Shown here piece by piece: positions 5,370 to 7,759 of a stretch of DNA of 51,279 nucleotides. A model generated the notes under the pieces. It searched no databases and was not told the origin of the DNA. It worked only from the letters and a program-made list of their open reading frames with translations. The stretch spans positions 1 to 51,279 of the forward strand of contig JACZSJ010000007.1 in the NCBI GenBank assembly GCA_022574295.1, read 5' to 3'. The translations under genes and the position numbers were made by a program. The DNA comes from Pseudomonadota bacterium. GTDB lineage: Bacteria; Pseudomonadota; Gammaproteobacteria; Eutrophobiales; Eutrophobiaceae. Numbering within the stretch: the stretch's first letter is position 1; each line of letters begins with the position of its first letter.

Positions 5370-6008
5370 ATGGCAAGTATAGCCAATAGACGTTCTGTAA
5401 TGGTGTTATATTCAGACAGTATCAGTCCAGCGGGTCATTGCGTAAGACTGGTTTTGGGGGAGAAAGACATCAATGTTGAAATTAACTATGTTGAAGTTGG
5501 AGAGAGGCCTGAATCACTTGTTGAAATTAATCCTTACAACTCTGTTTTGACATTAATAGACAGGGAACTAGTTCTGTATGATGAACAGATAATCATGGAG
5601 TATCTCGATGAACGATTCCCTCATCCTCCATTACTCCCTGTCGATCCTGTTACTAGGGCAGGTAATCGTCAAATACGTTTCCGTGTTTTAAAAGATTTAT
5701 ATTCTCTTATTGAAGATATTGAATCATCAGATAGTGCGAAAGTTGGTAATGCACAAAAAATCATGAAAGATAATCTAACGGCAATCGCGCCAGCGTTCAT
5801 GCATAAGCCCTATTTTATGTCAGATGAATATACACTGATTGATTGTTGTATGGCTCCTCTGTTATGGCGGTTGCCAATATATGGAGTCAAATTGCCAGCA
5901 TCAGCCAGACCAATCACAGAATATGCAGACAGACTTTTTGAAAGGGATGCCTTTCAGGCAAGTCTTTCTGAAGCAGAAAGGGAAATGCGTGGATTGGTTA
6001 GTGTCTGA
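5370..6008 (+). CDS. sspA: Stringent starvation protein A (GST-fold)
   Basis: VMVLYSDSISPAGHCVRLVLGEKDINVEINYVE N-terminus; located after petABC as usual in gammaproteobacteria. Confidence 0.9.
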   Translation: MASIANRRSVMVLYSDSISPAGHCVRLVLGEKDINVEINYVEVGERPESLVEINPYNSVLTLIDRELVLYDEQIIMEYLDERFPHPPLLPVDPVTRAGNRQIRFRVLKDLYSLIEDIESSDSAKVGNAQKIMKDNLTAIAPAFMHKPYFMSDEYTLIDCCMAPLLWRLPIYGVKLPASARPITEYADRLFERDAFQASLSEAEREMRGLVSV

Positions 6009-6039
6009 TTAAGTAACTTAATGCATACGAAGCAGTCTA

Positions 6040-6289
6040 ATGACCTCAAACAAGCCCTATCTGATCAGGGCGTTGAATGAATGGATCTATTTTTCAGCTC
6101 GATTTGGTGGCCGATCCTTCATGATTAATATTCCCATCAGTGCATATATTACAATATATGCTAAGGAAAATGGCCAGGGAATGATATTTGCCGAGGAAGA
6201 ATCATTACAGAGAGATCAATGAGAGAATTTGGCAAGACATAGAACAGAAGGAACCCAGCAGAAAACCAGCATTGAGAATTGTTAAATAG
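6040..6289 (+). pseudogene. sspB: Degenerate sspB (ClpXP specificity-enhancing factor) with internal deletion and frameshift
   Basis: MTSNKPYLIRALNEWI matches SspB start, then jumps straight to YFSARFGGRSFMINIPISAYITIYAKENGQGMIF; the KPALRIVK-stop tail is at 6263-6289 but in a different frame from the ORF that stops at 6222. Confidence 0.85.
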
Positions 6290-6320: not shown

Positions 6321-6899
6321 TTAATCTATATACTGAAAGAGTTTCACAACTTTCTGTACACCGCCAGATTTCTGTGCTGCTCCTGTGGCGAAATCAGATT
6401 CAGCTCGGGTTAAAAGTCCCATTAGATAAACAACGCCTTTTTCGGTGACTACTTTTACACGAATCCCTCCATCAAAATCCTTTAGCGTAAGTAGTCTGGT
6501 TTTTACTTTTGCGGTGATCAGAGTATCACTGCTACGACTTGTCCATGAGCTAGGTGCTGCGATGGTTAATTCATCATAGATATGAGTTACTTTTTGATTA
6601 TTTCTGACAATGTTAACAATACGTTGTCGCATATCCTCGCTTGGTGTTTCACCAGTGATTAACACAACTGTATTGTAGCTAGTCACATTGATGTGTGAAC
6701 TGTCATAGATTTCTTTATCAGAGAAGAAACTTTTAACTGCTTTCAGTTCTATGGCCTGATCTTCAATGAAGGTGCCAGTTGTTCGCCGATCATGAGCAAC
6801 AGAGGCTGTTGTACCTGCTGCACCGATGACAGCTGCAGCGCATCCAGTAAGTAATAATGGTAGTAATGAGATTAAAAATAATTGCTTGTTAAAAATCAT
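6321..6899 (-). CDS. dolP: BON-domain outer-membrane lipoprotein DolP (YraP)
   Basis: Lipobox LLTGC, two BON domains, synteny with diaA-yraN-lpoA; start at 6899 gives a proper lipoprotein signal peptide. Confidence 0.88.
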   Translation of the reverse strand: MIFNKQLFLISLLPLLLTGCAAAVIGAAGTTASVAHDRRTTGTFIEDQAIELKAVKSFFSDKEIYDSSHINVTSYNTVVLITGETPSEDMRQRIVNIVRNNQKVTHIYDELTIAAPSSWTSRSSDTLITAKVKTRLLTLKDFDGGIRVKVVTEKGVVYLMGLLTRAESDFATGAAQKSGGVQKVVKLFQYID

Positions 6900-6907
6900 T
6901 GTTTGCC

Positions 6908-7759
<852 letters not shown>

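Follow-up and report, generated by a model that had tools for sequence, protein, structure and literature searches.

Gene content of the locus

The window, which is the whole stretch of 51,279 nucleotides analyzed here, belongs to a gammaproteobacterial draft genome (G000; 2.23 Mb, 96.5% complete, 175 contigs). It carries a gene for a DegS/HtrA-type protease, petABC, sspA, a remnant of sspB, a BON-domain lipoprotein gene, and a gmhA/diaA-type gene; neighbors outside the coverage of the domain search were named by sequence resemblance. All large open reading frames (ORFs) of the window are open, among them a long series that starts at about 11.8 kb. The product of sspA shares 89% and 92% identity with the SspA proteins of two genomes of the same genus, G001 and G002, respectively, and the dolP-like gene that closes the interval is common to relatives with and without sspB. 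The features of this interval are listed in Table 1.

Table 1. Features of the interval from sspA to dolP in the window
Feature	Position	Strand	Basis
sspA, intact 212-aa ORF, GST-fold stringent starvation protein A	5370–6008	+	ORF; GST_N/GST_C domains
sspB remnant ORF, 60 aa: N-terminal helix fused to beta block, TGA exposed by frame change	6040–6222	+	Pfam SspB match
Deletion junction: one ATGAATGGAT copy	6077–6086	+	Repeat scan of the G001 gene
Frame-change interval	6197–6222	+	Translations
Stranded ClpX-binding (XB) tail KPALRIVK-stop, +1 frame	6263–6289	+	Same peptide ends intact G001 SspB in frame
dolP-like BON-domain lipoprotein gene, convergent, closing the sspA-sspB interval	6321–6947	-	ORFs and synteny; name from sequence resemblance

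A truncated sspB downstream of sspA

SspB is the adaptor that delivers tmRNA-tagged proteins to the ClpXP protease. The ORF that follows sspA reads MTSNKPYLIRALNEWI|YFSARFGGRSFMINIPISAYITIYAKENGQGMIFAEEESLQRDQ*. An earlier note on this DNA had described it as an sspB relic beside an intact sspA, and both the profile search and the open sspA frame bear this description out. With an E value of 9.7e-11 and a score of 42 bits, where 27 bits is the threshold, the match to the Pfam SspB profile (PF04386) cannot be attributed to chance; it is limited to profile positions 69–112 of 156. Likeness to SspB (PDB 8ET3, 1YFN, 1OX9, and 1OU8) is found in the N-terminal helix PYLIRALNEW, the position after sspA, the (Y/F)FSARFGG...IYAKENG.G.IF block, and the C-terminal tail PALRIVK, whereas the remnant differs in lacking 49 internal residues and in having its tail out of frame. 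Synteny is preserved: the remnant sits between sspA and dolP, exactly where G001 encodes an intact SspB of 148 aa (148 open codons). The SspB proteins of most intact relatives begin with MTSN(R/K)PYL, equivalent to the Met at 6040, and a 1-nt length difference at 6020–6040 was therefore dropped as a candidate third lesion.

A genome-wide search of G000 (96.5% complete) returned SspB matches at the window locus only, which dismissed the possibility of a full-length or second sspB elsewhere in this genome. Two attributes of a functional adaptor are absent from the remnant. The SspB domain does not span the full folded length, as seen from the partial profile match and the 49 missing codons, and the XB motif is not in frame, KPALRIVK lying in the +1 frame past the TGA at 6220–6222. 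The sole and partial SspB match, the intact copy in G001, the repeat at the deletion ends, and the out-of-frame tail together make it very probable that positions 6040–6289 represent an sspB pseudogene.

Two lesions in the window gene

Translation confirmed the join of the two blocks at 6087/6088 and the stop at 6222 that had been noted before. The proposed loss of the core between them also stood, although its size was revised: relative to intact G001, the window lacks I23–I71, that is, 49 codons or 147 bp rather than about 47 residues or 140 bp. By alignment to solved SspB, the missing segment, the middle third of the protein, corresponds to approximately residues 22–70 of the Escherichia coli protein. 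In the sspB gene of G001, a 10-bp sequence, ATGAATGGAT, recurs without mismatch at a distance of 147 bp, the two copies lying exactly at the deletion ends; the window keeps a single copy. Both copies encode EWI in the same reading frame, which explains why the deletion preserved the frame. A single repeat copy left at the junction is what slippage or recombination involving short direct repeats typically produces. In the readable intact sspB genes of other genera, no match longer than 6 bp was found at the two repeat places, and among the genes read the full 10-bp repeat was limited to the genus of the window. Among deletion-type pseudogenes formed between short direct repeats, the window relic resembles the known pattern in the reduction of its repeat to one copy and differs in that the two copies share a reading frame and the frame was kept; otherwise, nothing about it is unusual.

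The second lesion falls in the interval from about 6197 to 6222, where frame 0 runs into the TGA. As the earlier note had stated, KPALRIVK-stop lies at +1 in a frame that is open leftward as far as about 6197, reading ...NERIWQDIEQKEPSRKPALRIVK* over about 31 codons; the SspB of G001 ends in an identical tail peptide. The description of two lesions, a deletion and a frame change, also held, and both are absent from this close relative. In the order of events that we infer, an ancestor with a normal petABC-sspA-sspB block would have lost 147 bp, and with them the early strands of the fold, through slippage or recombination between the two in-frame 10-bp repeats, and a separate small indel just past the folded domain would have shifted the linker and XB tail into another frame.

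The tail frame contains no ATG, and no convincing frameshift site leads into it. RF2-like frameshifting into the tail was considered and rejected, since the end of frame 0, CAA TGA G, is not RF2-like. Reinitiation into the tail was also rejected: the ATG at 6219, which overlaps the TGA, opens a frame of 7 aa and not the tail frame. The product, if made, would be a fragment of 60 aa that lacks both a complete tag-binding domain and the ClpX-tethering tail, so that tmRNA-tagged proteins would have to reach ClpXP/ClpAP without an SspB adaptor. The function of sspB has thus probably been lost in the lineage of the window.

Apparently relaxed constraint on the remnant

Comparison of the window with G001 gave a non-synonymous proportion of 0.159 in the remnant and 0.064 in sspA, a ratio of 2.48 (from 47 codons, with changes on the G001 branch also counted). 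Among intact pairs, the 25 closest that were compared gave ratios to sspA of 0.78 to 1.74 for the same segments. When changes were polarized against G011, the window branch carried 10 non-synonymous changes against 9 synonymous ones, compared with 6 and 7 on the G001 branch, a difference that is not clear. The first 16 codons of the remnant showed no amino acid change and four synonymous changes relative to G001, which, with the identical tail peptide, indicates that decay has been slight. Constraint on the remnant therefore looks relaxed in this small sample, probably not for long. The intact tail peptide and ssrA tag make a fairly recent, undated loss of sspB plausible.

Alternative explanations

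A variant of the pseudogene reading concerns the closer congener by SspA identity (G002, 92% versus 89% for G001), in which sspB is broken differently. Its gene can be followed as far as ...LNEWIV and then gives way to a MITE, an element about 266 bp long whose inverted ends (TATACCCAAACTACTTGGAAATGCAG) measure 26 bp. Full or partial matches to this element number 24 to 33 in each of G000, G001, and G002; its target in this genus is probably TA. The MITE lies in the codon immediately following the first EWI, only a few bases from the deletion end of the window, and a single MITE insertion might have inactivated sspB before the two lineages split, with a later repeat-mediated deletion removing the MITE along with the 147 bp. 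We regard this scenario as possible but tentative: two independent hits at one place could also occur, the window locus bears no trace of a MITE, and the G002 contig ends inside repeats, leaving the remainder of its sspB beyond view.

It is very unlikely that sspB is functional and that the lesions reflect assembly or sequencing error. The genome is a draft in 175 contigs, and assemblers can collapse direct repeats, but the usual assembly k-mers and reads are far longer than a 10-bp repeat. An error would also have to occur twice, by unrelated causes, within 200 bp, yet the large neighboring genes are open. Furthermore, the remnant has diverged faster than the intact pairs, and G002 is independently broken.

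Least credible of all is a derived mini-adaptor, consisting either of the 60-aa product alone or of a protein extended into the XB tail through programmed +1 frameshifting, a form that the earlier note had already called much less likely than decay: the in-frame deletion, the N-terminal helix and XB tail unchanged as peptide, and the open tail frame would suit it, but 49 residues are missing from a fold of roughly 110, the tail frame lacks an ATG, CAA TGA G is unlike the RF2-type site CUU UGA C, the same short form was found in none of the relatives examined, and amino acid change in the remnant outpaces that in the corresponding segments of intact pairs, which leaves a selected mini-adaptor unsupported.

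Repeated loss of sspB in the family

The pseudogene of the window is one of several separate sspB losses in one family of uncultured Gammaproteobacteria. Of 43 genomes of the family with a completeness of 85% or more, 31 contained an SspB match (the window relic included) and 12 contained none. Family genomes with sspB loss kept ClpX, and mostly kept sspA and tmRNA. A larger, different deletion was found in G025, where the N-terminal third of sspB is joined in frame to KNKVVK* and the start region is degraded; sspB is intact in its congener G014. In six genomes from several genera (G007, G018, G028, G034, G027, and G033), sspB is cleanly absent, and dolP comes next after sspA. Neither SspA nor SspB was matched in the searches of G005. 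In a genome of another family (G047), sspB is split across two frames, through either a frameshift or a sequencing error.

Complete losses in the family, such as those in genus g17 (genomes of 1.3–1.5 Mb), resemble the window in keeping sspA beside a dead or missing sspB. They differ in that sspA is directly followed by dolP in g17, whereas the relic is still visible in the window, whose genome of 2.2 Mb is not strongly reduced. Our literature search on sspB loss or sspB pseudogenes found nothing on point. Taken alone, the window relic is an ordinary pseudogene; wider interest attaches only to the pattern across the family. Several stages of loss within one family, beside a mostly conserved sspA, provide comparative material.

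The tmRNA tag and ClpX

In E. coli, SspB is bound by the AANDENY portion of the ssrA tag and ClpX by ALAA; without SspB, tags bearing ALAA are still degraded, although less efficiently (PMC8512704). Cells would therefore be expected to tolerate the loss of SspB. The genome of the window retains ClpX with its zinc-binding domain as well as tmRNA, whose tag, ANDDNYALAA in the ARAGORN output, is the same as that of G001. With the alanine charged on tmRNA, the full tag is AANDDNYALAA, and its SspB-binding half is thus retained.

A changed tag was found in genus g15. Four of its genomes without SspB (G027, G060, G061, and G062) encode DEKYNYALAA, or ADEKYNYALAA with the alanine, and G016, which has SspB, encodes ANDDNYALAA. 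The change altered the SspB-contact half and kept the ClpX-contact ALAA end. Among the 53 family genomes searched, DNA for the DEKYNYALAA tag was confined to five g15 genomes. Genomes of g17, g4, and g6 without SspB kept an SspB-type tag, which indicates that a change of tag is neither immediate nor invariable after SspB loss.

The window, with a dead adaptor and a tag that still reads AANDDNYALAA, could represent the first stage of a joint loss of the adaptor and of the SspB-binding half of the tag, and g15, with no SspB match and the tag ADEKYNYALAA in which ALAA is kept, could represent a later one. We consider the chances evenly balanced that sspB is weakly constrained throughout the family and has been lost repeatedly, each loss freeing the SspB-binding half of the tag to change. 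The family allows a test of whether adaptor loss relaxes the adaptor-binding part of ssrA while the ClpX-binding end stays fixed.

Two further genomes showed additional tmRNA genes. G070, with no SspB match in the genome, carries three copies, each with the tag ANEDNYALAA. G028 has a second, divergent tmRNA with the tag GENKYALAA, which lies on a short and possibly foreign contig.
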